Shown here in pieces: positions 16,846 through 34,815 of a stretch of DNA of 34,815 nt. Each line of letters starts with the position of its first letter. Position 1 is the first letter of the stretch. The notes beneath the pieces were generated by a model. The model saw only the letters and a list, made by a program, of their open reading frames with translations, did no database searches and was not told the origin of the DNA. Position numbers and translations under genes: made by a program. The DNA comes from Elusimicrobiota bacterium (GTDB lineage Bacteria; Elusimicrobiota; Elusimicrobia; UBA1565; UBA9628): assembly GCA_013044195.1 (NCBI GenBank), contig JABEUV010000078.1:1-34815 (forward strand). The letters run 5' to 3'.

Positions 16846-16903
16846 CGAAAATTCGACCTCGGCCTTGCGAAGGGAAAGCACTCGGCCATCCGGATGATCA
16901 ATG

Positions 16904-16928: not shown

Positions 16929-16951
16929 CTGACCATGTATGGGGGTATGAT

Positions 16952-18396: not shown

Positions 18397-21300
18397 CTAC
18401 TTCAAGCCCTCGACGCCGGGGAACTGGCCGTTGGTCGTGGGACGGCCGTCGTTGAGAACCGAGGAGGAGCGCAGCTGGCCTTCCTCGACCTGGGCCTGCT
18501 GAATGTCGAGCGCCTTCTTGACGGCGGCGGCGTAGTCGGCGGCCAGGGCCGCGCCCTCGTCGCCGCCCTGGGCGGCGCGCAGGCGGACGTAGGCGTCACA
18601 GGCGGCCCAGTCCGGCGCGCCGCCGCGCGCCTTGACGAAGGCGACGAAGCGGGGGTCGGCGCGCAGCTGCTTGAAGAACGGGTCCTGCGCCAGCATGTCG
18701 CGGAAGACGCGGTAGCCGGCCACGGAGTCCATGTCCATCACCAAGGAGAAAGTCCGGTCGGCGTTGGGCAGGACGCGGCCCACATCGATGCGGCCCTCGG
18801 CCTGCAGAAGGTGGACGGAGGACATCTTGTGCGGGTCGACGATCAGCATCTCGAAGTCGGTGTAGCCGCGGAAGGCCTCCGGCACGGCGCTGCCGCGCTG
18901 GCCCTTGAAGTTCAAGTCCAGGCCGCGGCCGCCCACGCGCGTGTCGAGGATCAAGACGCGCGCCCGGCCCGTGTCGAGTGCTGCCAGGTTCATCTGCTCG
19001 GCCACGCGCGCTTCCGGAACGTTGTTGCGCAGGTACTCGGTGTCGGAGAACACCATGGAAATCTCGTCGGGCTTGAGGCCTTTGACGCGGATCAGGTAGT
19101 CGCGCACGGTCTTGAGCACGCGCGTGTCGGAGACGCTCAGGACCATCAGGCCTGACTCCTGGGAATCGGGCTGGGTCCTCAGCCAGGCGCGCGCGGCCTC
19201 GGCCTGGGCCTGGCTGACGCCGTCGCCGGCGCGCACGTCGGCCACGCGCACGACGGGCGTCTTGACGCCCTTGTAGCGCGGCGCGGACAGATACTGTTCG
19301 AGCGCGGGACGCGCGCCTTCGGGAATGTCTGCGGTATTCACGCTCACGGTCCGGCGCAGGTCCAGCAGCCACTGGCGCGCCGCGGCGGTGTCCGCGTCGG
19401 TCTTGCCGTGCACGTCGGAGACGCGCACGACGACGGAGTCCTTGCCCTTGAACTTAGGGTTGGTCAGGTAGGCGTCGATCGCGGGCCGGACGTCGGCGGG
19501 AATATCGTCGGCGGGCACCGCGCCGTCGGCGTTCACGCGCAGGACCACGCCGTCGGCGTCGCCGGTCCCGGCGCGCAGTTCGCGCAGTTGACCGAGGGCT
19601 TTCGCATAGACGCCGGCGCGAGGATCGTTGCGGGCGCCTTCGGCCTGCTTGGCGAAGTCGGCCAGCGTCAGCGTCGCCGGCCCGCTCATCGCGTCGAGCG
19701 CGGCCAGGCGCACATCCTCCGGCGCGCCCTTGACGTCGCCGAGGGTGACGGCGCCGTCGCCGGCGGTGCGGCCGTTGCGCTCAAGCCAGGCCCGGTCCGC
19801 CGCGGCCCCCTCGCCGGCGAAAGCGTCCAGACGCAGTTCCACCGGCTTGGGCAGCGCGCCGCCGGCTCGGTCCACCATGGCTTCGCGCACCTCCAGCGGC
19901 GCCCGCTTCAGGTCCGGCACCACCACCTGACCGCGCGCCGAGTCCAGGTCGGCCAGCGCGCGCCCAATGCGCGCATAGCTGTCGATGGGCCGCGCCGTCA
20001 GTTCCACGCCCACGTTCGGTGGCGGCGTGGAGCCCTGGCCCACCATCATGATGTCGTTCTTCTGGAAATGCTCGCGCAGCTTGTCTCCCGCCGTGCCCGA
20101 GAAGGAGATGAAGTTCGTCTCCTTGTCGGTGGTCAGGTCCTTGATCGTGCTGATGGACTGATGCGTGTAGGGCAAGGTCAGGTCGGTGCCGTAGGCCAGC
20201 TCCCAGTAGCGGCGCGTCTCGTTGTCCATCGACTCGAACCATTGGCCGTTGTGGACGACGTTGATGCGGCCGGTGCGGTTGTCCAGGCGGATGCCGGCCG
20301 GGTCCTCGAAGAAGCCGTCCAGCTGACGCTTGAGCTCCAAGCGCACCCAGGAGCCGCGCCCGCCCAGACCTTTCGGGTTCACGATCGAGCTGAGCAGATT
20401 CCAAAAAAGACCGTCGGCCTGGAGCCCGGGCATCGTCGGCTCTCGAAACAGCGCCTGGAGTAGCTGGGACGCCCGCAGCCGCGTCAGGCCCAGGTCCTCA
20501 AGCGGCACGTCGATGGGGCGGCCGCGCAGGACGTCCCAGAGCAGGCCGGCCGTCTTCCACGGCCCCAGACTTTTGCCGTCCAGCTTCGCTTCGAACGCCT
20601 TCTGGACCTTCTCATAGCCGAACTCCTTGGAGACCATCCGGTTGCCGGCGGCGTCGAAGACCTCCCTCCGGCCGGACTTCTCCTGACCGCGGAGCATCTC
20701 GCTCATCGCGAAGGTCTGCGCGTCGTCCTTCATTCGGCGGAAGACCGCGTACATCGGGTTCTCGTCGCCGGCGAAGGACTTGAGCAGGGCGCGGCGCTCC
20801 TCCATGAGACGGCGCGCGCGATCCTCCCAGCCGCGCTTGCCTTCGCGCACGATCGCGGCGATCTCATCGCCGGCCTGGCTCAAGCCCCGGCGAACCTCCG
20901 CGCGGGCCTTGTCGACCAGGCGCGCGCGCTCTCGCGCGCCGGGACCCTCGCGCGGCAAGGTCTCGATGCGACGCAGAAGGCCGCCCAAGTCCCCGCCTTC
21001 GGAACCGCGCCCAAGCTCGCTCTTGAGACGGGACTCCTCGGCGCGCACGGCCGAGTAGTCGGACTCCAGGGACTGCCGGCGCGCCTCCAGCTCCGCGGTC
21101 GATCCGCCGTCGCGCCGCGCGGCGACCAGAGCGTCGTCGATTTGCGCGGTACGCCGGCCGATGTCGTAGATGCGCGCCAGCGCCACGGCCCGTTCGCGCG
21201 CGACGGGCTTAAGCTCCGCGGGCAAGGCGTTTTCCAGGTCGGCGGCCTTCGCCTTCCAGTCCGCGAGGGACGCGGGCCTGCGAGCCTCGGGCCCGGCCTC

Positions 21301-24300
21301 GGCGGCGGCCACACGGTCCTGCAGGCCGCTGAGACGCCGACCCACGTCGACCGCCTGGAAGCGGTCGGTCATCGCCTTCTGGAGGCCGAGCAGGGACGCC
21401 TCGTCGCGCAAAGCCTGCGCGCGGCCGGAAGCCCCCGGCGCCGAGGAGCCCTCGGCCGCGTCGGCCTGCGCGGTCAGGCTGTCGATGCGCGCGCCCAGCT
21501 CCGCGGAGCGGACGGCGGCGTCGCTCGTCAGACGCTGAAGACCCTCTTGCCCGCCGCCCAGGTCCAGCAGGTTGCTCTCGCGCCGCAGATTGCCCTTCAA
21601 CTGGTCCAGCACGCCGCCGCGCAAGGACGCGTCGTCGGCCGGCGCGTCAAGAGAGGCCGCGACGTCGCTCAGCGCGCCGCGCGCCTGCGCCAGCGCCTGC
21701 GCGTCCAGGCCCGAAGCCGACGGCGAGGTCAGCAAGCCCTGAAGCTGAGCCGCGGCGTCGCGCACGTCGCTTTCCGCCTGGAACCGATCCAGCGGACCGT
21801 CGGCCTGAGCCAGACGGCCGGCGGCCCCGTCGAGCCGATCGAAGCCGGCCTTGACCGCCTCCGCGTCCAAGCCCGGCACTTTCGCCGCCAGCAGCTGCGC
21901 GCGGCCCGCCGCGGTCTGCGCGCGCATGCCGAGAGAAGACGCCGCGCTGTCGATGCGGCTCTGGACGCTGAGGTCCAGGGCGTCGGCGCGCGCGTAGAAC
22001 GGCGACAGCCGCGATACGCGCCCGGAGACCTGGCCGATGGTCAGCGCGGGCTGCATGGCCGCGCCGTCCATCTCGTCGCCCAGGATCCAATAGTCGCGCA
22101 ACGCGCTGCGGCCCTTGGTCTTGCCCTCGGCGGCCTTGGTCTTGAGGCTCTCGTAGGTCTCGAACGTCAGCTTCGAGCCGATCTTCTTGTAGGCGATGAA
22201 GTCCATCCGGGCCTGGGCCTCCAGGTTGGACTGCACCGTCAGGAACGCCACCTTCTTGCCCGTGGCCTGCGCGTCGGCCTCGACGAGCGGCAGAAGGCCC
22301 TCAAAAGCGACGAAGGTCTTGCCGCCGCCGGTTTTGAGCATCTGGAACACGCGCACGGAGCCCGTCGGCCGCCGCGCCACGAACGCGGTCAAAGCGCTCA
22401 TCAGCGCCTCGAACTGCTCCGGCCGCCAGCCCTTGAGCGCCGTGCCCTTCGCGTCGTGCAGGGCCCACGGCGAGGCCTCCATGTCGTCGATCGACCGGCC
22501 GATCTTCGCGCGTTCGTCCGGGGTCAGCCCTTCCGCGGACTGCAGGTCCTCGCGCAGGCCGGAGATCAGACGTCCGAAGGAGCCGTCGGCGCCCTTGCCC
22601 GCGACGGTCTCGTCCGGACGGCGGCCTTTTTTCCAATCCTGCAGTTTGGACTGAAAGCTGGTCAGCAGGGAGGACGGCGCCGGGCGCGAGCGAAACTCGG
22701 TGATCAGCGCCTGCAGGGACTCGTCGGCCAGCGCGTAGGCCTTCTCGACGCTGTTGAAGCTGTTGAAGCGCTTGTCGATGGCCGAAACGTAGTCGGCAAG
22801 CTTGGCCAGCACGTCGGCCTCCGGAGGCGTGAGCGTCCCGTCGGCCTCCCACTGCTTGACGCGGGAGCGAAGCCCTTCCAGGTAGTCCTTGTAGCCCACG
22901 CCTTCAGGCTCCTGCTTGACGCGCCATTCGGAGACTTCGTCGCGGATCTTGGCCAGTACGCCGTTGTCGCCGGAAAACGCGTCGCGCGGCTTGAGACGGC
23001 GCAGGGCCGCGTCCAGCTCGCGCGCCGGTTCGCGCGTGATCAGATTGGCTTCCAGGTAAGGCTTGAGCACCTTGTCCACGCTGGCGGCAAGACCGCGCGG
23101 CATCGCCTTGCCGATCTGTATGTCCGAGGAATACAGCGCGACCGCGACGTCCCGCTGGATCTCGGGAGTGACTCGTCCCACGCCGTCGACCATCTCTCCC
23201 GGCTTGGCCTCCAGGATGGCCTTCGCGCGCGCGGGGTCGGACAACAAGGCGCGGATGAAGTTGTTATGAGCGAGGAGACGGACCTCGTCGTTGACCTTCA
23301 AACTGCGCGCGAAAAGCTCTCCGTCCGCCATCTTCGTGATGCTTTGGAACACAAGCGGATCGGCCTTCTTGCCGCCGGCGGCCTCGAACATAGTCTTCTC
23401 GATGCCCTGGCGGCGGACCTGCTCGGTCACGGTCCACTTGCCGTTCGGCGGATCGCGAAAGAAGTGGAAGTCGAACACGCGCTGGGAGATCGGTGTCTTC
23501 GGCGTCTCAAGAAACGGCAGCTCCTTGCCCGATTCGGCGTTGGCGTACTCGTGCGTTCGACCGGCCGCGTCGTATTGGCGCATGCCCTCCGCTCCCCCCA
23601 TGAAGGGTGCGGCCTCCAGCGCCGCGTGGGCGGAGAAGGTCGGCAGGGCCAGCCAGATGGGCGCTTGCATCAACTCCTGGCCGGTCTGGTTGGCGCCCTT
23701 GATGCGCGTCTCGACGTCGGGAGAGCTTCCCCACGTCACCTGGCCGACGAAAGGCAGGCTGAGCGACGGCGCGTTGTAGGCCACCCAATGGCCCAAGCCG
23801 CTGGCGGCGTCGCTGACCAAGGCGTATTTGGCCACGTTGTCGGCCATGCTGAGCGGAAACGCCGCGATCTTGCCGGCCACGCCCTGCTCGGCCAGCCGGT
23901 CGATCAGGCCCTTGCCGGCGCCTCCCTCCACGGCCGGCCACAGGACGGAGTTGGCTTGAGTCATCGCGCCCGCCAGGGCCGAATCCTCGCCGGCCAACTT
24001 CACGGCCGTGGGCATCACCCAGGACGCCAGGCCGCCCAGGCCGCTCCACGCCGTGTCGACGACGCCGCGCGAGCCGAGCACGTCCATGGCGCCGGCCAGC
24101 CGCGTGCCGGCGAACGCCGACGAGGGCACGCCCACGTAGTTGAGCATCGGATGCCAGGATTCGTTGGCCCACCACGCGCCGCCCTTGGCGCCGGCCCAGA
24201 GAGCTTGCCCCGCGCCGGAAAGGTCGCTGGTATACACCGAGTGGCCGCCGGTCACGTCTTGATAAAAATGCTGTCCCAGCATGAAGCCGCCGGAAATTCC

Positions 24301-26430
24301 CGACGACATGGCGGTGAAAGTGGTCTGCCGGGCGGCGGCGTTGAGCGCGCGCACGCCGCTTTCGGCCAGGTAGCGCACCGCTCCGTTTTCGATGCGGCCG
24401 GTCATCGCCATGGACGTCTGCGTCTGCAAGGTGGTCAGACGAGCCGCGGTGTGCAGGGCCGCCTCGCGGGTCATGATCGAGGCGCGGGTAAGAACGCGGC
24501 GCATCACGCCCGCGTCCTCGCCCGCCGCCGTCAGGCCGGTGGCGTCCAGTCCCTTGGCCAGCCCCGTCAGTCCGCGCGCGGCCACGCCGCCGCCCAGGCC
24601 GATGGCGACACTCCACTCCACCAGGCTGCGCCCGGTGTCGATCCACTTGTTCTTCTCGAACACGGACACGATGCGGTCGCGGTTGGCGGTCAGGGAGGCC
24701 GCGATCTTGACGTCGTCGGTCACGCGCTTGGGCTGGTCGCCGAAGAGTGCCGACTGAAAGTGGGCGCTCGCCGCATCGGGGTTCATCGCGATGACCGAGC
24801 GCCGCGCGCCGGCCATGTCCCCGCCGGCGATCTGGCCCATGATGGCCTGGAACTTAGGCGTATCGGCCGCAAGCGTGTTCATGTTCGCGCGGTAGCCGCC
24901 GTCGACGCGGCCGTAGAGCCAATACGACCAATTCATGCCCGCCGCCTGGCCGCCCATTTTTTTCGCGGCCCAGGCGGCGGCCTTGTCGACGACGCCCACG
25001 TTGGTCTGGTCCTGGGTCAGCGCGGCCACGGTGGGAACCTCAACGTAAACGGAGTAGTCGGTCGAGATCGTGCCCAGCGAAGTCTGGCTGGCGGTCAGCA
25101 TGGCGTTGGCCGTGTCGAGGCTTGCGGACGGATCGGTCTTGTCGAGCAGCAGGCGCACGCGGTCCAACTGCGCGCGCACCTGCTGAAGCTGAGCGATCAT
25201 GTCCCGGCCGCGCTGTTTGTAGAGGACCTTCATCTTGACCGGAACGTTCAGCTTATCGAGAGCATCCATCAACTGCTTGGAGTCCGGCGAAGACGGGTCG
25301 AGCCGGTCCTCCTGGTTTTTGACGTAGTATTCCTGGGTCTCCAGCACCGCGCGCGTGAGTGCCACGCGCGCGACCTGCTCATCGAGCGCCAGGCTCTTGA
25401 CCGCGCCGTCGCTGACGACGGGGTTCTTGGACATGGAGCCCAGAAGGGCGGCCACGTCGCCCTTGTAGGCCGCGATGTCGTTATAGGCGTCCTTTAGGTA
25501 ATTCTTGCGTTTGAGAAAATGCTGCTCGACGATGTCGTAGACGCTGTAGGTCTTGCCGCCGCTGTCGTAAGTCTTTTTTTGGGCCTGCGCGATCAGGTCG
25601 CCTTCCAGCGTCTTGTCGGTAAACCACATGTCGTCGCGGTATTGGCCGGTCTTGCCCAGCAAGTCGGCCAACTCGATCATGCGGTCGCGGCGCAGTCCGT
25701 CCATGAGGGCGTTGTACTGGTTGTCGACGGCCGCATACGAGTAGTCGAACATCTGCCGGTTGTAGCGGCCCGTCTCCGGCACGAACGGCGCGCCGACCTG
25801 GGGCGCCTGGTTCATGGCGTGCTGCTGCTTCTGGAGCGCACGGTTGTAGACCGTGGTCTGGCCGGCGTTCATGACGTAGACCAGGTCGCCCTTCTTGTCG
25901 TAGAACTCGGCGCCGTCGGGAGTCTGGACGCGGACCATGCTCGCGGCGTTGGGCGGATCGACGACGGCCGCGCCCGACAGCGCGGCCTGGGCCAGCGCGC
26001 CGCGGCGGAACTCGTCCTCGGCGGAGGCTGCGGCGGGATCGGCGGGAGCGGGAAGGCCGGCAAGCTGTTTTTGCACCGTGCCGATCAGCTTGGACGCGGC
26101 CGCGGCACTCGTCGGCGTATACGCGCCATTGCCGCGCAGGACGTCGAGCGAGGGTTGAAGTGCCGCGGCGGCATCGGCGGGGTTGTCGCGGGGAGCCAGC
26201 GCGTCGTAGATGGCCTGGCCGATGGGCGTGAGTTGATGGCCGTTGCCCAGGTAGCTCTTGAGCACGTCGCCGTCGCCCTGATAGACGCCCCAGGACTTCA
26301 TCTGCTGGAGCGCCTGGGCCGGGCTGACGCTCGGCGCGCCGCCGTCGGCGAACGCGGCCGCAGGCCAGGAGCCGGTCGCAAGCGCCGCCGCGACCGCGGC
26401 GGCGAGCAATCGACGCACGAGGTTGTTCAT
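18397..26430 (-). CDS. Giant protein with signal peptide and SecA-like ATPase core
   Basis: The product has 2677 aa. Residues 1-28 form a clear signal peptide (MNNLVRRLLAAAVAAALATG, ending AAAFA). Residues 29-560 are mainly helical, 570-930 are Gly/Ala-rich and mildly hydrophobic, and 960-1340 are helical. The ATPase core then follows SecA order: Walker A KTGGGKT (1366-1372; SecA has MKTGEGKT), DEMD (1452-1455; SecA DEVD), a FSGTAG motif (2110-2115; SecA MTGTA), VGGRGLDL (2499-2506; SecA MAGRGTDI) and QAEGRIDVGR (2543-2552; SecA QLRGRSGRQG), followed by RTFSLVMDMD like SecA RFYLSLEDD. A long coiled-coil insertion separates DEMD from SGTA, and about 380 residues including repeats separate SGTA from motif V. 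SecA is a cytoplasmic motor of about 800-900 aa. An exported version is very unusual, and its energy source outside the membrane is unknown. It is last in a co-oriented envelope cluster and has its own promoter. Confidence 0.9.
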   Translation of the reverse strand: MNNLVRRLLAAAVAAALATGSWPAAAFADGGAPSVSPAQALQQMKSWGVYQGDGDVLKSYLGNGHQLTPIGQAIYDALAPRDNPADAAAALQPSLDVLRGNGAYTPTSAAAASKLIGTVQKQLAGLPAPADPAAASAEDEFRRGALAQAALSGAAVVDPPNAASMVRVQTPDGAEFYDKKGDLVYVMNAGQTTVYNRALQKQQHAMNQAPQVGAPFVPETGRYNRQMFDYSYAAVDNQYNALMDGLRRDRMIELADLLGKTGQYRDDMWFTDKTLEGDLIAQAQKKTYDSGGKTYSVYDIVEQHFLKRKNYLKDAYNDIAAYKGDVAALLGSMSKNPVVSDGAVKSLALDEQVARVALTRAVLETQEYYVKNQEDRLDPSSPDSKQLMDALDKLNVPVKMKVLYKQRGRDMIAQLQQVRAQLDRVRLLLDKTDPSASLDTANAMLTASQTSLGTISTDYSVYVEVPTVAALTQDQTNVGVVDKAAAWAAKKMGGQAAGMNWSYWLYGRVDGGYRANMNTLAADTPKFQAIMGQIAGGDMAGARRSVIAMNPDAASAHFQSALFGDQPKRVTDDVKIAASLTANRDRIVSVFEKNKWIDTGRSLVEWSVAIGLGGGVAARGLTGLAKGLDATGLTAAGEDAGVMRRVLTRASIMTREAALHTAARLTTLQTQTSMAMTGRIENGAVRYLAESGVRALNAAARQTTFTAMSSGISGGFMLGQHFYQDVTGGHSVYTSDLSGAGQALWAGAKGGAWWANESWHPMLNYVGVPSSAFAGTRLAGAMDVLGSRGVVDTAWSGLGGLASWVMPTAVKLAGEDSALAGAMTQANSVLWPAVEGGAGKGLIDRLAEQGVAGKIAAFPLSMADNVAKYALVSDAASGLGHWVAYNAPSLSLPFVGQVTWGSSPDVETRIKGANQTGQELMQAPIWLALPTFSAHAALEAAPFMGGAEGMRQYDAAGRTHEYANAESGKELPFLETPKTPISQRVFDFHFFRDPPNGKWTVTEQVRRQGIEKTMFEAAGGKKADPLVFQSITKMADGELFARSLKVNDEVRLLAHNNFIRALLSDPARAKAILEAKPGEMVDGVGRVTPEIQRDVAVALYSSDIQIGKAMPRGLAASVDKVLKPYLEANLITREPARELDAALRRLKPRDAFSGDNGVLAKIRDEVSEWRVKQEPEGVGYKDYLEGLRSRVKQWEADGTLTPPEADVLAKLADYVSAIDKRFNSFNSVEKAYALADESLQALITEFRSRPAPSSLLTSFQSKLQDWKKGRRPDETVAGKGADGSFGRLISGLREDLQSAEGLTPDERAKIGRSIDDMEASPWALHDAKGTALKGWRPEQFEALMSALTAFVARRPTGSVRVFQMLKTGGGKTFVAFEGLLPLVEADAQATGKKVAFLTVQSNLEAQARMDFIAYKKIGSKLTFETYESLKTKAAEGKTKGRSALRDYWILGDEMDGAAMQPALTIGQVSGRVSRLSPFYARADALDLSVQSRIDSAASSLGMRAQTAAGRAQLLAAKVPGLDAEAVKAGFDRLDGAAGRLAQADGPLDRFQAESDVRDAAAQLQGLLTSPSASGLDAQALAQARGALSDVAASLDAPADDASLRGGVLDQLKGNLRRESNLLDLGGGQEGLQRLTSDAAVRSAELGARIDSLTAQADAAEGSSAPGASGRAQALRDEASLLGLQKAMTDRFQAVDVGRRLSGLQDRVAAAEAGPEARRPASLADWKAKAADLENALPAELKPVARERAVALARIYDIGRRTAQIDDALVAARRDGGSTAELEARRQSLESDYSAVRAEESRLKSELGRGSEGGDLGGLLRRIETLPREGPGARERARLVDKARAEVRRGLSQAGDEIAAIVREGKRGWEDRARRLMEERRALLKSFAGDENPMYAVFRRMKDDAQTFAMSEMLRGQEKSGRREVFDAAGNRMVSKEFGYEKVQKAFEAKLDGKSLGPWKTAGLLWDVLRGRPIDVPLEDLGLTRLRASQLLQALFREPTMPGLQADGLFWNLLSSIVNPKGLGGRGSWVRLELKRQLDGFFEDPAGIRLDNRTGRINVVHNGQWFESMDNETRRYWELAYGTDLTLPYTHQSISTIKDLTTDKETNFISFSGTAGDKLREHFQKNDIMMVGQGSTPPPNVGVELTARPIDSYARIGRALADLDSARGQVVVPDLKRAPLEVREAMVDRAGGALPKPVELRLDAFAGEGAAADRAWLERNGRTAGDGAVTLGDVKGAPEDVRLAALDAMSGPATLTLADFAKQAEGARNDPRAGVYAKALGQLRELRAGTGDADGVVLRVNADGAVPADDIPADVRPAIDAYLTNPKFKGKDSVVVRVSDVHGKTDADTAAARQWLLDLRRTVSVNTADIPEGARPALEQYLSAPRYKGVKTPVVRVADVRAGDGVSQAQAEAARAWLRTQPDSQESGLMVLSVSDTRVLKTVRDYLIRVKGLKPDEISMVFSDTEYLRNNVPEARVAEQMNLAALDTGRARVLILDTRVGGRGLDLNFKGQRGSAVPEAFRGYTDFEMLIVDPHKMSSVHLLQAEGRIDVGRVLPNADRTFSLVMDMDSVAGYRVFRDMLAQDPFFKQLRADPRFVAFVKARGGAPDWAACDAYVRLRAAQGGDEGAALAADYAAAVKKALDIQQAQVEEGQLRSSSVLNDGRPTTNGQFPGVEGLK

Positions 26431-26458
26431 GGGAAGAGGGGACTTGAAGGACCCTCCC

Positions 26459-26517
26459 AGTGTAGCAGAGGAGGCCCAGCCTGTCAGGGCCTAAAGTACC
26501 GACACTATATAGGCCCT
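26459..26517 (-). promoter_or_regulatory. Promoter and upstream box of the SecA-like giant gene
   Basis: On the minus strand CTGACA (26482-26487), 17 nt, then TACACT (26459-26464) make a sigma70-like promoter about 28 nt before the ATG. The box CTTTAGGCCC (26487-26496) abuts the -35. It is half of a perfect 8-bp inverted repeat, AGGGCCTA (26486-26493) and TAGGCCCT (26510-26517), enclosing GTCGGTA. A related box lies before the next gene upstream. Confidence 0.6.
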
Positions 26518-26540
26518 ACGACCCGCCCCCGCCGGTCTTT

Positions 26541-29204
26541 TTAAAGGTGGCCCTGATTGCAGACCGCTTGAGCTTCGGCCAGGGTCATGCCGCGCCAGAT
26601 GACGGGGCCGGCGCAGTTCTTCTTCGCGTTCTTGATATTGCTGTTGTCGGGCGAGGGCACCGCGTCGCGGTAGACCACGTAGGCGCCCTTCGTCGCGTCG
26701 CCGAAGAACACGATCTTCGAGTTGTTGATGGGCACGGGTGCGGCGGCCTGCAGGCCTTGAAGCTGTACGCCGCCGTCCTTCATCCATTGCGCTATATCGC
26801 CCTGAAGCGGTATGTTCGCCGAACGCACGAGATGCGTCGTCTTTGAATCGGCGTCCTCCCGCTGCATGCGAAAGACGACCGACCAAGATCCGTCGTCGAC
26901 CTCATAGAGAGCGGCGTTAGGATTTTTCGCGTCGTCGGCCTGCTTGAAGCCGGGCTCGAAAGAGTGATCGCCGGACAGAGCGGAGACGTCCGCCATCTCA
27001 AACGCGGTGCCCGTGCCCGTACCGCTCGACGTCGCATCACGGGGAACCGTCTTTTCGACCGGCCAGATCTCAAAAAAAGGCTTGCTCTTGTCGTCGGGCA
27101 TCACGCGCAAAGTGCCCGACGTCTGCTTGCCGTCCAGCGAACCGCTGACCATATAACCGCCGTCTCCAAGCTGGGCCTCGATCTTCTTGAAATTCGCGGC
27201 GATGGCCTGGGCCGCCGCCTGGTATGCCACCGCCTTGCCCTGGGCGTCGGTGATGCCTTGGGAGTAAGTCGCGACGATGTCGATGGCGACGTCGATATCG
27301 GGAGCGCCGCTGATCACGTTGTTGCCCGTGTCGTATTGAGCGGGAGCGAAGGTCTTGCCGTCGTTGTATTGCGCCAGGATGGCGCTGATCGGGTAATAAG
27401 AAACGGTCACGTCCTGACCCTTGGCCTGCTCGAAGGCGATCTGATCCTCGAAGCCGCGCGCCCCGGTCAAGCCCGGCAGAACGTTGGGGCCGAACACCAA
27501 CGGCGAATCCGCCGGCGCCTGTCCGTGCGTCTTGACCAGGCCCTTGGCGAACACCAGGTAGAACGTATTCGCCTCGGTCTTGCTTTTCATGAGATGAACG
27601 CGCGCCAGGTCCGCCGCGTCGAAATCCGCATTCCCGTCGCGGCCCGTGTAGCTGTCGGTGAAGTCGCCGCACGCGGCCGCGCCGCATTGGCCGGAGGCAG
27701 TCGAAGGACCGCCGTTGCCGCCTCCGGCCTTCCCGCCCGTTAGAGCGGCCGCGTTCATATGGGCGGTGTCGGTGCTGCTGCTTGGCGGCGCGGGAGGAGG
27801 ATCTCCGGGGCCGGGCTTGACCTCCCACTGGCCGCTGGCTTGGTTGAATTGCAGGTGATAGGGGTCCTGCGCGCCGGTCGCGGAGTTGTAGAAGGTGCCC
27901 ATGTCCGGCTTCTTGCCCGAGGCGGGCACGGACAGCCCATCGGCGTCCACCTTCTCCACGCCGTCGGCGATGGCCGCCGGGCGCAGCAGGAGCGGGTTGC
28001 CGCCGTTGCCGCGGGCGTCGATCAGGCTCTTGTCGAAGAACAGATACGAACCCGTCGCCCCTCCTTGGCCCAGAACGTAGTAGCTCTTGCCGTCGATGCT
28101 GACCTGGCCGCCCTGTGTGGCGACCTGATTGGCGCGCAACGTCGCCAACTCACTGGGCGAGAACTTGGCCGCGCTGCCTTGCCCGTCCTGCGTCTTCGGC
28201 CTTGCCAGCGTGATGGTCCCGTCGGCGCCCACGGTCAGTTCGTAGTTGCGCGTGATCGGCGCGCCGCTGTCCTGACCGCCGTAGACCGAGATCGTGGTCT
28301 TGCCGGTGTTGATGGGAACGAAGGCCGGCGCGTAGATGTGCGCCGGGTCGGTGATGTCCACCACGCCGATCTTGCTGACCAACTGGCCGTTGGCGTCCTT
28401 GACGGTGTACTCCTTGATCGACAACTTGCGATAGCCGTCCTGCTTGTCGCGGTAGACGTTGGCCACCACGGCGCCGTCCACGTAGAGATTCTGGAAACTG
28501 CTGGCGGGCGCGTTCTGCAGAACGTTTCCACCCCCATTGCCGTTGCCGTATTGGGGCGACATGGGCGCCGGGTTGGTACCCTGATCGTTGGCGGCGATGC
28601 TGTTCTCGATCTGCCGCTTGTGCCCGCAATCCAGCAGAACCTTCTGCGCGTCCAATCCCGCGGCCTGCAAAAAATTGCCCAGCGACGCGGCCAGGCCGGC
28701 TTGCTGAATCAGCCCCACCTGAGAACCGGGCGGCGTCGAGAGACGGTCCGCCAGGCACGCCGGCAAATCGTATTGACCGGGCGTAAACAGCTTGGACGCC
28801 GTCGGATCATTCTTGATCCAGTCCGGCGCGGGGTCCTTGGACGCCAGCACGAAATAAAGCGTGGCCGCGGAAAGGGGCGAAGCCTTCACCCATTTGCCCA
28901 CCTCGGCCGCGATGAGCGTGGCGTCCTCCGCGCTGGCGCGGACGTCGTCAGCGGCGTATTTCTTCTTCGGATCAAGCACCAGGGCCTGCACCGCTTGGTC
29001 CACGTCCTTTTTGGCCTGATCGCCCTTCTTGATCAGCGCCTCCAGCGCATGCGGCGCGTCCGCCGTCTTGGCGGAAGGCGCCGGCTTGGACGCCGGGATG
29101 GGCGCTTTCGTCGCGGCCGCGTCGGCGAAAACCGGCCTCGGCGACAAGCATGCCGCCCAGACCGCCGCCCACACCGCCGCCATGACGGGACTATAGGGTT
29201 TCAT
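26541..29204 (-). CDS. Secreted protein of unknown function (887 aa)
   Basis: The start at ATG 29204 is supported by CTGGAG 6 nt upstream. Residues 1-28 form a signal peptide ending PVFADA, followed by an Ala/Pro/Lys linker and a helical region to about 215. A Gly/Asn-rich hinge (NGNGGGN) follows. The rest is mainly beta-rich with recurring segments such as VVDITDP and YELTVGADGTITL. Near residue 535, GRDGNADFDAADLA resembles a calcium-binding dockerin or EF-hand loop. A Pro/Ser-rich linker near 470-480 separates the two halves. Cysteines are few (for example CGAAACGDF) and the C-terminus ends CNQGHL. No family is recognised. It lies between the anchored proteins and the SecA-like giant, with a 110-bp gap to the latter and its own box-bearing promoter, so a shared envelope role is likely but inferred. 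Confidence 0.85.
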   Translation of the reverse strand: MKPYSPVMAAVWAAVWAACLSPRPVFADAAATKAPIPASKPAPSAKTADAPHALEALIKKGDQAKKDVDQAVQALVLDPKKKYAADDVRASAEDATLIAAEVGKWVKASPLSAATLYFVLASKDPAPDWIKNDPTASKLFTPGQYDLPACLADRLSTPPGSQVGLIQQAGLAASLGNFLQAAGLDAQKVLLDCGHKRQIENSIAANDQGTNPAPMSPQYGNGNGGGNVLQNAPASSFQNLYVDGAVVANVYRDKQDGYRKLSIKEYTVKDANGQLVSKIGVVDITDPAHIYAPAFVPINTGKTTISVYGGQDSGAPITRNYELTVGADGTITLARPKTQDGQGSAAKFSPSELATLRANQVATQGGQVSIDGKSYYVLGQGGATGSYLFFDKSLIDARGNGGNPLLLRPAAIADGVEKVDADGLSVPASGKKPDMGTFYNSATGAQDPYHLQFNQASGQWEVKPGPGDPPPAPPSSSTDTAHMNAAALTGGKAGGGNGGPSTASGQCGAAACGDFTDSYTGRDGNADFDAADLARVHLMKSKTEANTFYLVFAKGLVKTHGQAPADSPLVFGPNVLPGLTGARGFEDQIAFEQAKGQDVTVSYYPISAILAQYNDGKTFAPAQYDTGNNVISGAPDIDVAIDIVATYSQGITDAQGKAVAYQAAAQAIAANFKKIEAQLGDGGYMVSGSLDGKQTSGTLRVMPDDKSKPFFEIWPVEKTVPRDATSSGTGTGTAFEMADVSALSGDHSFEPGFKQADDAKNPNAALYEVDDGSWSVVFRMQREDADSKTTHLVRSANIPLQGDIAQWMKDGGVQLQGLQAAAPVPINNSKIVFFGDATKGAYVVYRDAVPSPDNSNIKNAKKNCAGPVIWRGMTLAEAQAVCNQGHL

Positions 29205-29235
29205 GGCGTTCTCCAGAACTTTTTCGTCGCGCGTC

Positions 29236-29288
29236 AGTGTAGCTCTTCGTCCTCCAACTTTCCTGGGTCTAAAGTCCTATACCGACTT
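29236..29288 (-). promoter_or_regulatory. Promoter region of the 887-aa secreted protein gene, with conserved box
   Basis: The minus strand holds TACACT (29236-29241) and, 23 nt further up, CTTTAGACCC (29265-29274) preceded by GTCGGTATAGGA. The SecA-like giant has the same TACACT, 22 nt, CTTTAGGCCC layout with GTCGGTA just above. AAAGTC/GACTTT also forms a 6-bp inverted repeat here. The -35 is poor, which would fit an activator-dependent promoter. Confidence 0.5.
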
Positions 29289-29300
29289 TGTGTGGGGCGT

Positions 29301-30870
29301 CTATGGTTTCGCTTTTACCGCCGCGCCCTGAACGGCATTAAGCACGCCCAACTGCGCTGATCGCATGTCGGAAATGGCTTTCATTAGGTCTTTAGCCGCT
29401 GTGTCATTAAACTTAGTTGGGGCAGGCTGTTGTGAAGGATTGTTGATTGGCGATGCCTTTGACTGGCTGCAGTCGTAACCGATATTCTGGCATGCCTGGT
29501 TGATCAGCTTTGTAACGGCCAATTTATCTGTATCAACCTGCGAGGCAAGCTGAGCCGCATTCTGTCCAGAGGCCACTACCGGGAAAGACACTTGGGCCGC
29601 AGGTACCGGTTTGCTTGGATCAATCACCGGCAAAGGAGATCCCTTGTTTTTCTCGTTGTAATCTGAAATCGCCGTCTGAAGATTGGCCGCATATGTATTC
29701 GCATTGCCGACTTTCAATATGGTCGGGTCGGTATTCTTACTAAACGGATCGTTGGAGTCCTGCCCCCCAGTCGAATCGGCATTCACGGCGTCGCTCAACT
29801 GCGTCAAGACACTTTGGAGCTGATTCGCGCTCGTTTGCAAGGTCGTCTGCACCGTCGTGACCTGTTTCGGCAAGCCCGAACTATTTCCCGGATCGACTTC
29901 CGCAGCAAGTTTCGTGTACTGGCTGTCCACACCCGAACCGGTCACCGGCTTTACATGACCCAGCATCGTGGTGACCTCTTGCAAGTATCCCTGCGCGCTT
30001 GTTTGAGCAGGGTTCGGCATGACACCCAGCTCTGCCGTCGCCGCGTTATATTCTTTCAGCGCGGTCGGCAAGAGCGTCTGCACCTTATCAGCCGTAAGAT
30101 TCGCGACACCTGGAGAAGCCAATAGGGGGTTTACGGCCGAATTAATATGACCAAAAACATCCTGGAGCATACTCTTAACATTTGCGCCACCATGCACGCT
30201 CGCAGCTGAGCATGACAGCCCGTTTGTTGCAGGGAAATTGGGCATCGAACTCCCATCAAGTTCATTCTTCCCTTGGGCAAGCAAATTTAAATCCGCAGCA
30301 ATTTGCTGCAGATAGGGTTGCGTCGTCTTGATATCTAAGGTGCCTCCAGCCAAACCTCCCGCAGCCCTGCAGTCCGAGGTGATTTGGCCGCCGATCTGAT
30401 CTACACCCGACTGAGGAGTGGAGGTGGCGTTGCCGTTGCCGCTTCCAGCGCTCCCGGAACAAATCGCGTATCCATAGCCCTGGTCGCACCCAGCGGAATA
30501 AGGACCATTTTTAATGAGTTGCTGTCCCGAACCGTTCGAACATGCAGCTAATATTGAAGTGCCGTCGGCTAACGTCTTACAGACCATCCAAACAGGAGAA
30601 ACTCCACCGGAGGTAGTTGCCGGCTGGCCCGCAGTCTGGCTCGTATTAGTTCCGGACGGAGCGCACGTGTTCCATCCAAGAGACGTGCCTCCCCAATTCT
30701 GGACGGGGAATCCGGCGGTGCCTCCCGCGCCAGCACAAGTGAGGTTGTTCATTCCAGCGCCGATGCAAGTCATGTTGTACTTGGAAAACATCGGAATACT
30801 ACAACCGACCACGTTCCCTAGTCCTGTGCCGATCGTTGAGGCGAATGTGCCGGCAATGCTCTCCATCGCC
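29301..30870. other. Low-GC segment within the 873-aa protein gene
   Basis: Base composition drops sharply inside a continuous reading frame and returns to high GC in the next gene. The right edge is roughly 30850-30900, where the helical region ends; the left edge is near the stop codon. I saw no flanking repeats or insertion sequence ends. It looks like domain-level transfer or a variable surface region. Confidence 0.65.
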
Positions 30871-31922
30871 GTGTTCTCAAGCTTGTACATTTCCAGCGTG
30901 CGGTCGCCCGCCTCCTGCTCTTTCCAGTACAGCTCCAGCTGCTTCTGGAGGTTCTGCTTCATCATCTCGTAGGCCAAAGACTCGCCGCCGCTTTTGGAAT
31001 CCTTGGGGCCGCCGCCGTTGCCGGGCTTGTCGGCGGGACCGCCGCCGCCGGGGCCGGAGCCGCCGCCGGCAGATTGGCCGCCGCCGCCCGGGATGGATTC
31101 ATTGGCGGCCGCGTTCAGGTTTCCTTGGGCGGAGCCGGCGGCACGGTCGAACATGCCTCCGGCTTTGTCGGCCGCGGCCTTGAGCGCGGTCTGGGCGTCC
31201 GCGCCGGTGGTCTGGCCGCGCGGGCCCACGCTGGCGATGTTGCCGCCGCCCTTGACGCCGGCCATGTTGTTGGCCACGTTGCCGTGACTGCCCAGGCCCA
31301 GGCCCTGAGTGGACACGCCGGGGCCGGCGGTGGCGCTGGAGGTGCCGCTGGCCACGCCCAGGCCGCGCAGACTGGAGCCGGAAAGAGAGATCTTGGGCAC
31401 CGGCAGAAGCGATTTCTTGACGGCGGCGCTGGCCGCGTGAGAGGCGGCGCCGGCCAACGCGTCGCGCACGTCCTGGTCGGAGCGGCCGGACCCGCTTACC
31501 GGGGGCGCGACCGAGGCCGAGGAATTGGTGGGCGGCTGGGAGGACGAGCCCGGGCCCATGATCAAAGATGAAGGGTCGCGCACGTTGAGCGGGGTGATCA
31601 CATCGGAGCCGCCCACGGGGCTGCCCACCGCGGTGCCCGAGCCGTCGCTGGTGCGGTCCTCCGCGCCGAAGATGCCTGGGCCGGCACCCTTGCCACTGCC
31701 GAAGCCGGGGCTGAGGCTTGCGTCGCCGTTGTCCGGGCTCATCATGAAGTGCTCGGCCAGCGGGGCCATGAACAAGGTGCCCAGTCCCGCCAAAATGAAG
31801 GCCAGATCCTTCTTGTTGAACTGCTTCATCCGGTCGAGAAAGGTAATTCCCGCACCCAGGCCGCGCACCTTCACCTGCGGCTTTTGGGAGTCCTTGAGAG
31901 TCGGGATCTTGGGCTGGTCCAT
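29301..31922 (-). CDS. Membrane-anchored Gly-rich protein with compositionally foreign Cys-rich C-terminal half
   Basis: The 873-aa product starts at ATG 31922 with AGGAGA 8 nt upstream. There is a short cytoplasmic N-terminus, then one transmembrane helix (DLAFILAGLGTLFMAPLA, about 39-56), then a long Gly/Ser/Ala-rich stretch to about 320 and a helical region (MMKQNLQKQLELYWKEQE). From about residue 350 the protein becomes Ser/Thr/Asn/Gln-rich with many cysteines (for example CSIPMF, NMTCIG, NLTCAG, GYDCSQSK), suggesting disulfides outside the membrane. The matching DNA (29301 to about 30870) is far less GC-rich than the rest: 27 of 60 bases at 29401-29460 against 51 of 60 at 31021-31080. 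That suggests a replaced or acquired C-terminal module. The start lies 24 nt after the stop of the gene before it, so the two are probably co-transcribed. No known family is recognised. Confidence 0.85.
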   Translation of the reverse strand: MDQPKIPTLKDSQKPQVKVRGLGAGITFLDRMKQFNKKDLAFILAGLGTLFMAPLAEHFMMSPDNGDASLSPGFGSGKGAGPGIFGAEDRTSDGSGTAVGSPVGGSDVITPLNVRDPSSLIMGPGSSSQPPTNSSASVAPPVSGSGRSDQDVRDALAGAASHAASAAVKKSLLPVPKISLSGSSLRGLGVASGTSSATAGPGVSTQGLGLGSHGNVANNMAGVKGGGNIASVGPRGQTTGADAQTALKAAADKAGGMFDRAAGSAQGNLNAAANESIPGGGGQSAGGGSGPGGGGPADKPGNGGGPKDSKSGGESLAYEMMKQNLQKQLELYWKEQEAGDRTLEMYKLENTAMESIAGTFASTIGTGLGNVVGCSIPMFSKYNMTCIGAGMNNLTCAGAGGTAGFPVQNWGGTSLGWNTCAPSGTNTSQTAGQPATTSGGVSPVWMVCKTLADGTSILAACSNGSGQQLIKNGPYSAGCDQGYGYAICSGSAGSGNGNATSTPQSGVDQIGGQITSDCRAAGGLAGGTLDIKTTQPYLQQIAADLNLLAQGKNELDGSSMPNFPATNGLSCSAASVHGGANVKSMLQDVFGHINSAVNPLLASPGVANLTADKVQTLLPTALKEYNAATAELGVMPNPAQTSAQGYLQEVTTMLGHVKPVTGSGVDSQYTKLAAEVDPGNSSGLPKQVTTVQTTLQTSANQLQSVLTQLSDAVNADSTGGQDSNDPFSKNTDPTILKVGNANTYAANLQTAISDYNEKNKGSPLPVIDPSKPVPAAQVSFPVVASGQNAAQLASQVDTDKLAVTKLINQACQNIGYDCSQSKASPINNPSQQPAPTKFNDTAAKDLMKAISDMRSAQLGVLNAVQGAAVKAKP

Positions 31923-31946
31923 GGGGGTTTCTCCTGAATTAAATCA

Positions 31947-33419
31947 CTAGTGCGACGGGGCGCTCTGCACTCCCTGCCCGTCGGCGTTGCCGCTCTGGTC
32001 CTGAGACACGTTCACCTTCTGAGCGGAGATGCCGTTGCCGATCTGGTTGCACTCGTCGTTGCAAGTGGACGCCGAATCCGCGGCGGTCAGAGGACAAGCC
32101 CGCGAGTGCTGGCAACGCACGGACATGTATTGACCGCAGGTCGCGCGCATCTGGCTTGCCAACGCGTTGCAGTAATTGAGCTTGCTCTTGCTGCAGCCGC
32201 CGCTGCCGCAGCTGGCGGCGGCGAACTGCTGGGACTGGTCCTGCATTTGCGCGTTGAGATTATCCTCCTGCGGGCCGTACTGCGCGTCAAGCGCCTTGCA
32301 CGTCTGCGCGTCCTGGTTCATCTGCTGAGCGTTCTGTAGGTAGGTCTGCCCCAGCCCCGAACTGGGCAGGTTTGGCGAGCCGCCGGGATCCATCGGCGTA
32401 CCCGTGACCAATCCATTGGTCGCGGGATTGTTGACCGCGTTGCCGTCGTAGATCGCGCCGGTGTTGGCCGCGGCGAACTCGCTCGGGCAACCGGCGCCGC
32501 AGTTCGGCGTGACGGAAATCTGCGCCTGGGCGTTGCCCTGAGCCAACTGCGTGTACGCGCGGCCCGCGCCCAGCGAGGAGGCTCCCGCCATGCCTTGGGA
32601 CTCGTGCGCCTGCAATTCCCGCGCGAAGCGCCCGGAGATGCGTCCGCCCACGCCGCTGACGGCCGCGCCGCCGGGGCTTGACGCCGTCGGCAGATTCGCC
32701 AGGCCCGCCTGCGCCGCGCTGCCCGAAACCGCTCCGACCGAGCCGCTGAAGAATCCCCGGCCCGCGTACGCGCCGCCGGACAGCGCGTCGGCGCCCGTAC
32801 CGCCCGCGCCGCCCATCAAGCCGCTGAAAAATCCGCCCGCGAACGCGGCCTTGACGAAGCCCTCGCGCCGGTCGCCGACGTCGCCCGGGCCCAAGGTCAA
32901 CGCGTCGCCGTCCTTAGCCGCCTGCGCCGGATCGACGATTCCTTTGAAAGGACCCGTGCCGCCCGCCGCGGAACCGGAGTTGGATCCGGCTCCAGTTCCG
33001 GAGCGGTCGCCGCCCTCGCCCAAGTCGGCGCGGCTGCCTTTGACGTATGCCAGCGAACCCGCGCCGTAGTCGGACTTTCCGTCGCCGGAAGCGGCGAAGA
33101 ACGGCCCCCAGCCCGCGCGCTTGCCGCCCGCGCGAGCCGATTCGAAGGCCGCCAACAAATCGCCGAACCGGGCGTTGCCCGACGCCAAGCCCCAGCGTCG
33201 CACGTCCACGCCCATGCGCGAGGCCAGCCAGGCGATCCCGGCTTCCATGCGCGAGCCTCCCGGGATATCGCCCCAGAACGCCGACGGCGACACAAAAACG
33301 GTCGACGCTCCGATCAGGAGCAGCAAGAGCAACGCCAGAACCTTGTGTTCCCGCAGGAACAGCAACAGAGCCGCCAGCAGGCTCTTCTTCTTGTTCCGCT
33401 CCAGGAATTTATTGGTCAT
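31947..33419 (-). CDS. Membrane-anchored Gly/Ala-rich protein with Cys-rich C-terminus (490 aa)
   Basis: I chose ATG 33419. A TTG at 33470 in the same frame lies inside an excellent -35 element and cannot be translated from that promoter. The N-terminus is basic (NKFLERNKKK) with a transmembrane helix at about residues 13-43 (KVLALLLLLLIGASTVFV). A Gly/Ala/Ser-rich middle follows with small segments such as GGRISGRFARELQ. The last 170 residues contain many cysteines: CGAGC, CKALD, CGSGGCSK, CNALAS, CGQYM, CQHSRAC, CNDECN. The build matches its neighbours on both sides: anchor, Gly-rich stalk, distal cysteines. An envelope structural role is likely. No named family is recognised. Confidence 0.82.
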   Translation of the reverse strand: MTNKFLERNKKKSLLAALLLFLREHKVLALLLLLLIGASTVFVSPSAFWGDIPGGSRMEAGIAWLASRMGVDVRRWGLASGNARFGDLLAAFESARAGGKRAGWGPFFAASGDGKSDYGAGSLAYVKGSRADLGEGGDRSGTGAGSNSGSAAGGTGPFKGIVDPAQAAKDGDALTLGPGDVGDRREGFVKAAFAGGFFSGLMGGAGGTGADALSGGAYAGRGFFSGSVGAVSGSAAQAGLANLPTASSPGGAAVSGVGGRISGRFARELQAHESQGMAGASSLGAGRAYTQLAQGNAQAQISVTPNCGAGCPSEFAAANTGAIYDGNAVNNPATNGLVTGTPMDPGGSPNLPSSGLGQTYLQNAQQMNQDAQTCKALDAQYGPQEDNLNAQMQDQSQQFAAASCGSGGCSKSKLNYCNALASQMRATCGQYMSVRCQHSRACPLTAADSASTCNDECNQIGNGISAQKVNVSQDQSGNADGQGVQSAPSH

Positions 33420-33441
33420 GGCTTGTTTGCGCGACTTGTCC

Positions 33442-33470
33442 AGTGTAGCGGCCGACGCCGGCTTTGTCAA
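33442..33470 (-). promoter_or_regulatory. Strong sigma70-type promoter TTGACA-17-TACACT
   Basis: On the minus strand a perfect TTGACA (33465-33470) is 17 nt from TACACT (33442-33447). Transcription would start near 33435, leaving about 15 nt before ATG 33419. No clear Shine-Dalgarno sequence is seen in that leader. The TACACT -10 is the same as at the two other promoters of this cluster. Confidence 0.7.
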
Positions 33471-33505
33471 CCGCGGCCATATGCATTTACCGCCTTTTTA
33501 CGCGT

Positions 33506-34815
33506 CTAATTCTTCGCCCCTCCGCTGCCGGCCACGGTCCCGCCGTTGGTCGTGGCTCCGCCCGTGTTGCTCAGCGTCGGACTCCCCGTTTCGGTCGTGC
33601 TTTGCTGTTTGAGGGCGGCGCCGTTGCTGCCGCCCGGATCTCCCGCCGAGGTGGTGCCGCTGACCTGTTGCTGCACGGTCGTGGTCTCCTGAGGCGTGCA
33701 GTTGCTCTGCCCCTGCAAGGACTGGGCGGTGCATTGGTGCACGATCTGACCCTGATACGGGCCGACCTGGGACGCGACCTGGTCGCCCATCTGGTTGGCC
33801 ATATTGGCCATCTGCTTGGCCATCTGCTCCATCATGTAGCCCATACCCACCAGCATGGCGCCGATAGCGATGAGGACCGCCCCCCACGGCAAACATCTGG
33901 AACCGATGCCGATCAGCACAATGCCGATCACAATCATCTCCATGCCTTGCTTCTGCATCTGGGCGGCCTGCTGAGCCATCTGCTGAATCTGGTTCATGGA
34001 GTTTTGCAGGCCCGGATCGGTGATGGTACCGGGAGGTGTGGGCGGCGCGCCGGGCATCGTGGTGTCCGGCGCGCCGGACCCCGACGACGCCCCGCTGGTC
34101 GGACCGCTGCCGATGCCGGCGCCGCCGATGGTGTTGAGGTCGCCGCCCATCGCGTTCTGCTGGTCGAACGCGCCGTTGGCCGCCGACGCCGCGCCCTCCG
34201 CCGTCGCGGCGCCCGCGCCCATCGTAGACATGCCGCGCGCCATCCTGAGCTGGCCGATGGCCTGGCTTGAGCGCGCGCGCTGAACCTGCATACCGGCAAT
34301 CGAGCCGCGCGGCGACTTCGCCGCCATCGAGCCCAGGTTCCCCTTGACTCCCGGCTTGCCGCCCATGCCCGAAAGCTGGGACAGTCCCGCGTTGAATTTT
34401 GGCGCGTAGCCGCTGTTGCCGCCCGCGAAGATATTCTTGCCGCCGAAGTCGCCGCCCAGGCTCGACGACAGCTTCGCCCCGCTCAAGTTGTGCGCAAGCA
34501 CGTCCTGACGCACGTAGGGCTGAGAGTCGGCCGGGTTCGGCGCCGGCTTGTCGTCCGCCTTCGGCGCAACCTTGCCGTCGGCCTTCGCGCCCGCGGCCGC
34601 GTCCTTCGGCGCGGCCGGAGCCTTGGCCGCGCCGAAGGCCAGCTCGCCTTTGCCGTTGACGCCCATCATGTCGCCGTCGCCGCTGCGCACATGAAGCGAC
34701 GAGGATATCCCGCCCAGGTCCGGCCGTCCGATGCCGCCCGCGCCCGCATTCGCGCCGCCGTGCAGCAAGGAGTACGCAAGCGCCCCCGCCCCCATCGTCA
34801 TCAACAGTGCCGCCG
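33506..34815 (-). CDS. Gly-rich membrane protein with C-terminal transmembrane hairpin (N-terminus beyond window)
   Basis: The frame is open to the right edge. The hydrophobic stretch ALLMTMGAGALAYSLL is at the very edge, so the true start is probably outside the window and this is its N-terminal helix. The Ala/Lys/Pro- and Gly-rich region that follows includes GQLRMARGMSTMGAGAATAE. Near residues 285-325 (counted from 34804) two closely spaced transmembrane helices (MEMIVIGIVLIGIG, then WGAVLIAIGAMLVGMGYMM) are flanked by Met/Gln-rich amphipathic helices. The tail has a Cys pair (CTAQSLQGQSNC) and is Ser/Thr/Gly-rich. No family is recognised. It is first in the visible co-oriented envelope cluster, 86 nt before the next gene. 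Confidence 0.75.
   Translation of the reverse strand, partial: AALLMTMGAGALAYSLLHGGANAGAGGIGRPDLGGISSSLHVRSGDGDMMGVNGKGELAFGAAKAPAAPKDAAAGAKADGKVAPKADDKPAPNPADSQPYVRQDVLAHNLSGAKLSSSLGGDFGGKNIFAGGNSGYAPKFNAGLSQLSGMGGKPGVKGNLGSMAAKSPRGSIAGMQVQRARSSQAIGQLRMARGMSTMGAGAATAEGAASAANGAFDQQNAMGGDLNTIGGAGIGSGPTSGASSGSGAPDTTMPGAPPTPPGTITDPGLQNSMNQIQQMAQQAAQMQKQGMEMIVIGIVLIGIGSRCLPWGAVLIAIGAMLVGMGYMMEQMAKQMANMANQMGDQVASQVGPYQGQIVHQCTAQSLQGQSNCTPQETTTVQQQVSGTTSAGDPGGSNGAALKQQSTTETGSPTLSNTGGATTNGGTVAGSGGAKN

Follow-up and report, generated by a model that had tools for sequence, protein, structure and literature searches.

The window analysed here is an entire contig of 34,815 bases (C288; JABEUV010000078.1) from the genome of an Elusimicrobiota bacterium (GCA_013044195.1), which comprises 3.36 Mb in 299 contigs. 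Between positions 18397 and 34815 it carries five adjacent genes, all on the minus strand, for three glycine-rich proteins (Gly3, Gly2 and Gly1), a beta-rich secreted protein (Beta) and a giant SecA-like protein. A sequence-only reading of this DNA had described five consecutive, co-oriented genes and proposed an undescribed envelope apparatus. The open reading frame (ORF) coordinates bear out that arrangement, and comparison with relatives supports an undescribed conserved envelope gene set, of which these five genes form the 3′ part; as an interpretation, the apparatus is partly supported. We found no description of the locus in the open subset of PubMed Central, which holds no preprints.

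The locus in the window

Gly3 (33506-34813), whose 5′ portion lies beyond the contig end, combines an N-terminal transmembrane (TM) segment seen in relatives with a Gly/Ser-rich stretch and a C-terminal hydrophobic hairpin. The Gly2 ORF extends to 33470 but likely occupies 31947-33419, starting at the ATG at 33419: the listed ORF shows homology only from residue 18 on, and a promoter-like site lies just upstream. It encodes a Gly-rich protein with a single N-terminal TM segment and 11 cysteines. Gly1 (29301-31922) divides into an anchor and a hypervariable distal part, and Beta (26541-29204) is a beta-rich secreted protein whose signal peptide was recognised by eye. The SecA-like giant (18397-26430) has 2,677 residues. 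Farther downstream on the same strand lie a gene for a protein resembling REP-associated tyrosine transposases (RAYT-like; 13139-14038) and one for a giant outer-membrane-type protein (2-13063) of at least 4,354 residues, which starts probably at the ATG at 13039 or 13027 and whose 3′ end lies beyond the contig. Cysteines had been placed in the distal part of all three Gly-rich proteins, which holds for Gly1 (three in the first 400 residues, nine after) and for Gly2 (distal by eye) but not for Gly3, which has few.

None of the five proteins attains a Pfam or NCBIfam cut-off, and the outer-membrane-type giant does not either (0 of 6); to that extent they indeed fit no named secretion system. 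No tRNAs were found within the window. The ratio of nonsynonymous to synonymous substitution (dN/dS) against the close relative G017 is 0.07-0.20 for seven of the eight locus genes compared and 0.49 for Gly1; these values show purifying selection, so the locus genes look like real, selectively kept proteins.

Gene order is conserved across an order of Elusimicrobiota

We took the surroundings of the SecA-like gene from 32 further genomes, used a codon score to call the genes and identified these by profile. The order that recurs starts with a TadE/G-like pseudopilin gene and continues with FtsH-like, Gly6, Gly5, Gly4, Gly3, Gly2, Gly1, Beta, SecA-like, a potassium-channel/TrkA gene (Kch) in some regions, RAYT-like and the outer-membrane giant, and it is kept across three families of one order. 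The three Gly-rich proteins of the window are thus the tail of a six-member array, within which Gly3, Gly4 and Gly5 are paralogous (hhalign Prob 99.5-99.9). Going upstream from the SecA-like gene, the first locus gene met is Beta in all 25 order-level regions that could be assessed, that is, those with at least about 1.5 kb of upstream sequence (six could not); other ORFs lie between the two in G006, G020 and G036, and the SecA-like gene of G020 was called by BLAST only. Gly1 stands before Beta in all 21 regions that have sufficient sequence, and in G018 (1.5 kb upstream, with another gene there) and G031 the match to the Gly1 anchor sits on another contig. Beta is absent from two class-level outliers, G048 and G214. 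For six regions of the group labelled f1, a BLAST homologue was found in three f2 regions for 49 of 80 locus genes, as against 22 of 142 other genes. The neighbourhood is therefore conserved as the sequence-only reading would have it: homologues are syntenic rather than scattered, and, with no family cut-off reached, they do not resolve into unrelated known pathways.

The genes that precede the window are found in the same genome on contig C235, which carries kinase and signalling genes, TadE/G-like, FtsH-like, Gly6, Gly5 and Gly4 and ends just past Gly4; in the coordinates of G017, the gap between it and the window is about 115 bp. Its FtsH-like protein is 97% identical to that of G017. FtsH-like proteins of G016 and G020 match both PF00004 (AAA+) and PF01434 (M41) above cut-off, and a HEAGH zinc site can be recognised by eye.

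A profile of the SecA-like giant (A2) matches 39 of 294 genomes of the phylum, including 36 of the 43 listed order-level genomes and three outside the order, and its C-terminal 1,427 residues are matched in 43 of 58 relatives, a count that includes the genome itself. Our sole look outside Elusimicrobiota was a scan of 84,980 species with one peptide pattern, a single conserved motif of the ATPase domain, which gave 123 pattern matches and, from these, 29 confirmed loci; all titles that name a group read Elusimicrobia or Elusimicrobiota, and the rest read 'bacterium'. One outlier, on contig C13 of G048 (L062/L063), is a 6,071-residue ORF outside the order that joins many predicted TM segments to a SecA-like domain and has none of the other locus genes.

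Gly1 joins a constant anchor to a variable distal half

Conservation differs sharply between the two halves of Gly1. The anchor (30903-31922, residues 1-340) is 94% identical to that of G017 and is matched in 39 of 44 family-level genomes, whereas the distal region (29301-30902, residues 341-873, 533 residues) is matched in two of the 44, namely the genome itself and G017, the latter at 30% identity. DNA identity to G017 falls from about 0.9 to about 0.45-0.5 at the boundary, between adjoining 60-bp bins, and recovers at Beta. G+C content at third codon positions (GC3) drops from 0.88 for the anchor to 0.58 for the distal region, compared with 0.83 in neighbouring genes. Across relatives, anchor GC3 exceeds distal GC3 in 18 of 21 cases, the difference being strong in the window, G019, G020 and G022 and slight or absent in G040, G045 and G036. 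In G006 (L040, region 14567-19823), two tandem Gly1 genes have anchors that are 100% identical and distal parts that have diverged.

The simplest reading of this pattern is that the distal half is exchanged by recombination, and in the window genome it looks horizontally acquired by such exchange, though fast divergence of a single domain may account for the pattern instead. At the same time, two distal cysteines are invariant or nearly so among 16 Gly1 sequences, which makes a common scaffold likely for the distal parts. The idea that they are unrelated cassettes was not supported, since a jackknife recovered the held-out distal part at E <1e-3 in 13 of 21 cases; this test is weak, as decoys often scored equally well, some of them perhaps because they are pieces of split Gly1 genes or of low complexity, which is our guess. 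We found no credible toxin or other known domain among the 16 members (best 0.0035, in one member).

The giant is probably a membrane-anchored relative of SecA

Averaged over the alignment, the hydropathy of the giant shows only two clear peaks, the core of a signal peptide (26350-26406, residues 9-27; peak 1.49) and a conserved hydrophobic segment predicted to span the membrane (24568-24624, residues 603-621; peak 1.39, against a mean of -0.36 and a standard deviation of 0.43). In 21 of the 30 orthologues scored, the latter is the highest peak apart from that of the signal peptide, two fragments having been too short to score. The giant had been described as exported; with a signal peptide followed by one further conserved segment, the chain is predicted to return, leaving the ATPase in the cytosol. 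Its topology is thus probably a signal peptide, a periplasmic N-terminal third, one TM segment and a cytosolic ATPase, a prediction under which the intact ATPase would have access to ATP.

That ATPase domain (18400-22533, residues 1300-2677; Walker A at 22315-22332, residues 1367-1372) has a coiled-coil insertion after Walker B. Superfamily 2 (SF2) motifs I-VI are intact (Walker A, DExD, SGT, GRG.D and Q..GR), and the motif residues are invariant in all 25 aligned domains, of 32 available. We modelled the domain of an orthologue (L095) that is 52% identical to that of the window, with a mean per-residue confidence (pLDDT) of 78.8 and a global confidence (pTM) of 0.53. SecA is the closest fold to this model: the four best PDB matches in Foldseek are all SecA (prob 0.98-1.00), as are the best 11 in VIA-align, counting SecA2 (Z 13.7-14.9), and 374-485 residues align to SecA, compared with about 290-330 to RIG-I, MDA5 and RadD. 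In hhalign, the core of the giant matches an alignment of 15 SecAs from relatives with Prob 93.7 (P 1.9e-7). Direct searches yielded little. No match to SecA_DEAD (PF07517) or an NCBIfam SecA family appeared up to 0.1, and PF07517 finds only an ordinary SecA, on contig C285 of the same genome. The sole Pfam hint is ResIII at 0.0036, below cut-off; HMMER against the PDB gave coiled-coil matches and one helicase at 0.03, with no SecA, and phmmer with the full-length giant gave no match.

In SecA, the PPXD is located directly after Walker B. The giant has its insertion at this point too, where it is helical in the L095 model, and it shares with SecA and SecA2 the order of SF2 motifs as well as the closest fold match. 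It differs from them in its signal peptide and TM segment, about 1,300 extra N-terminal residues, a coiled-coil insertion of several hundred residues and the lack of a SecA_DEAD match, alongside a separate ordinary SecA in the genome. The giants of West-Roberts et al. are said to carry divergent SecA DEAD domains. A report that cites them states that giant genes, of up to 85,800 residues, are common in Omnitrophota and Elusimicrobia (PMC12057145). We encountered no description of such giants in one neighbourhood with an array of Gly proteins, an FtsH-like protease, Beta and a variable Gly1, the arrangement that marks the present locus.

One further large ORF in the genome, of 2,729 residues (contig C271, L170 8919-17108, minus strand), shows by eye an S2P-like membrane protease region and Clp-type AAA+ modules. 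It was considered as a second SecA-like giant and rejected by profile.

The locus adjoins a Tad pilus locus in near relatives

A Tad (type IVc) pilus locus stands immediately upstream of the locus in the near relatives G016 and G017. Its CpaB (TIGR03177) is above the NCBIfam cut-off, and Pfam cut-offs are exceeded by a secretin (PF00263), two T2SSF proteins and a ParA-TadA fusion (T2SSE); the Flp match there is 0.028 in Pfam, below cut-off. A relative of another genus, G205, has similar signalling genes, a TadE match at 0.0058 (below cut-off), the FtsH-like gene and a Gly array, and contig C235 of our genome carries the genes that lie between Tad and Gly4. An FtsH-like gene follows the TadE/G-like gene in all ten regions that have the latter. 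An earlier report describes many Tad systems in Elusimicrobia (PMC6668835).

Compared with Tad loci (Flp, CpaB, RcpA, TadA-TadC and TadE-TadG), the present locus is similar in opening with a TadE/G-like gene and in having a promoter-like motif in common with Flp. It is dissimilar in that the window genes are not Tad components, none of the five proteins having a pilin, type II secretion system or Tad family match in Pfam or NCBIfam, and in that the Gly array, Beta, the SecA-like giant and the outer-membrane giant are additional. We know of no Tad locus with a SecA-like giant. The Myxococcus Kil system is a Tad pilus with variable tips (PMC12075869), and our locus would resemble it in the sense proposed below, as a Tad machine with variable tip proteins. 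Kil tips are minor-pilin complexes, however, whereas Gly1 is a TM-anchored Gly-rich protein with no pilin match. Because the Tad link is the only firm functional anchor of the locus, and because giant genes of Elusimicrobia are already on record, we regard the locus as attached to Tad rather than as categorically new.

A promoter-like motif recurs in the locus

The motif TGACA-N17-TACACT lies on the minus strand before Gly2 (33442-33469) and before the SecA-like gene (26459-26486). Allowing spacers of 16 to 18, it occurs upstream of Gly2 in 13/18 cases, of the SecA-like gene in 7/31, of Gly6 in 5/11, of Gly4 in 5/14 and of Gly1 in 3/22, and upstream of none of the other eight locus families; a loose form was found in 0 of 199 controls inside genes. 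Four of its 14 occurrences in our genome (reversed control, 0) are in this locus. Across nine genomes, 29 of 149 matches fall in the fetched locus stretches, where 2.8 are expected, and without the discovery genome 25 of 135, where 2.6 are expected. In G016, the motif ends 9 bases 5′ of the Flp start codon.

The ten other sites in our genome, judged by eye, include Flp-like pilins, a GspF/PilC-like protein, exported proteins, and antitoxin-like and helix-turn-helix (HTH) genes. Given those last two, the motif may be an ordinary strong promoter of the lineage, and it is the enrichment in the locus that carries weight. At one site, L192 (contig C277), two tandem Flp-like pilin ORFs follow the motif (by eye).

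Downstream genes and insertions

The outer-membrane-type giant had been put forward as a TolC-like outer-membrane partner, which we find moderately supported. It lies on the same strand, and its residues 2600-3120 (3704-5266) match an alignment of OEP proteins from the same genome in hhalign (Prob 72.5, reversed control 1.3); for OEP (PF02321) itself, the contig gives a match at 5468-5686 with an E of only 0.76. This region resembles TolC/OEP factors in that match alone and differs from them in sitting within a protein of more than 4,350 residues that has a separate conserved region, beta-rich by eye (6014-7426, residues 1880-2350; mean column identity 66% over eight orthologues), for which there was no credible PDB match. 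A domain common to the SecA-like and outer-membrane giants was sought among 18 segment pairs and rejected (best Prob 1.4).

Conserved before the outer-membrane giant, and with the lowest dN/dS of the locus (0.07), is the RAYT-like gene, called in 17 of 33 regions. The HUH (HxH) catalytic pair is the RAYT motif; here its first histidine is lost in 17 of 17 proteins and the second kept in six, and the tyrosine is kept in all 17. With an NCBIfam score of 41.9 bits (cut-off 80) and a DnaA-type HTH match at the C-terminus, the protein looks like a domesticated transposase serving as a DNA-binding protein.

Kch (15806-16831, minus strand), an ordinary neighbour, lies beside the locus in 9 of 33 regions. 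Between it and the SecA-like gene, on the opposite strand, a DUF4143/AAA_14 ATPase gene (16901-18196, plus strand) is likely a mobile insertion: it is not at the same place in G017, and related genes occur elsewhere in the locus of G018 and G020. A fragment with weak radical SAM/SPASM similarity (14154-14822, minus strand) was likewise not found at the same place in G017.

Discussion

The locus probably builds an undescribed machine for touching other cells or for secreting to them. Our best explanation, held tentatively and at somewhat less than even confidence, is an envelope machine, linked to the Tad pilus and powered by ATP, by which Gly-rich proteins are assembled or exported and a variable tip is displayed. 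In such a machine, the SecA-like giant, sitting in the inner membrane, would use ATP to drive the substrates of the locus, or their assembly, through that membrane, and the TM-anchored, Gly/Ser-rich array from Gly6 to Gly1 would span the periplasm from there. Exported Beta and, where present, the giant TolC/beta-rich protein of outer-membrane type would make up the outer part, and the membrane-bound FtsH-like protease could provide quality control or processing. Gly1 would be the exposed, exchangeable tip, in which a hypervariable distal domain on a conserved anchor makes contact with surfaces or other cells, and production could be coordinated with that of the Tad pilin through the common promoter. 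We are more doubtful of a bolder form of this proposal, in which a membrane-anchored SecA relative, a Gly array, a giant outer-membrane channel, co-production with Tad and a recombinationally exchanged tip for recognising or attacking cells would together define a new class of ATP-driven trans-envelope machine.

Several observations weigh against the machine that we propose. The f2 genomes G045, G040 and G036 keep the locus from the TadE/G-like gene onward, but the fetched upstream stretch holds other genes, with no Tad motor among those assigned. The segment at residues 603-621 is not the top hydropathy peak in 9 of 30 orthologues, and that of the window protein is itself mildly hydrophobic (best window 1.22). 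Foldseek E-values for SecA range from 3.7e-3 to 1.9e-2, no match of any kind falling below 0.001, and other SF2 helicases come next in VIA-align at a Z of about 13.6, with DinG, RIG-I and RadD within 1-2 Z. When single sequences are compared in hhalign, 3 of 12 other SF2 ORFs (Prob 41.9, 58.5 and 82.1, in a range of 0.1-82) score above all 15 SecAs (7-38), so this comparison is not in SecA's favour. At the outer membrane, only 11 of 33 regions yielded a call of the giant, which was not found in G018 or G205 despite downstream sequence, and HMMER finds no TolC/OEP for its residues 2600-3120 in the PDB (E up to 1) or Pfam. For Beta, no fold could be placed: its model has a pLDDT of 62 and drew no credible match in Foldseek.

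Much of the same evidence could be accommodated by an elaborated Tad pilus locus and nothing more, in which the Gly proteins, Beta and the SecA-like ATPase would serve pilus assembly, tip placement or base anchoring with no separate export, and Gly1 would be a Tad tip adhesin. The Tad genes that immediately precede the locus in G016 and G017, the constant pairing of TadE/G-like and FtsH-like genes and the motif before Flp all suit such a locus, as do the variable tips described for Kil (PMC12075869). We nevertheless consider it rather unlikely, given the f2 locus that lacks Tad motor genes among its assigned neighbours, Gly proteins in the window with no pilin family match and a SecA-like giant not known from Tad loci. 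It is also conceivable that the locus encodes a device for contact-dependent killing or predation, the variable half of Gly1 being an effector or a receptor-binding domain delivered to other cells. A constant anchor with a variable distal domain, the foreign-like GC3 in the window, G020, G022 and G019, and the diverged tandem copies in G006 are what one might expect of such a weapon, and Tad complexes have been linked to predation in Omnitrophota and Bdellovibrio-like organisms (PMC10066038). That the 16 Gly1 proteins have no credible toxin or enzyme family, that no immunity-like gene was recognised and that the distal parts look remotely related to one another, not like unrelated cassettes, make this device improbable.

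The account to which we give the least credence takes the giant for an SF2 nucleic-acid helicase or a signalling or scaffold ATPase, and its neighbours for a surface-protein operon with no common machine. ResIII as the only Pfam hint, the narrow gap in VIA-align and the three SF2 controls that outscore SecAs all lean that way. Set against this are the signal peptide and conserved TM segment, the first place of SecA in two programs, the greater number of residues aligned to SecA than to RIG-I, MDA5 or RadD and the constant linkage to an exported protein.

If our preferred explanation is true, a SecA-type motor would have been recruited not as a general exporter but to power a surface machine, as its dedicated engine anchored in the membrane. 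The role of SecA-like giants in this branch of the tree would become testable in terms of partner, substrate and target cell, and the split between constant and variable parts of Gly1 already singles out one protein and one boundary. Through its variable domain one could then approach directly what these uncultured bacteria come into contact with.

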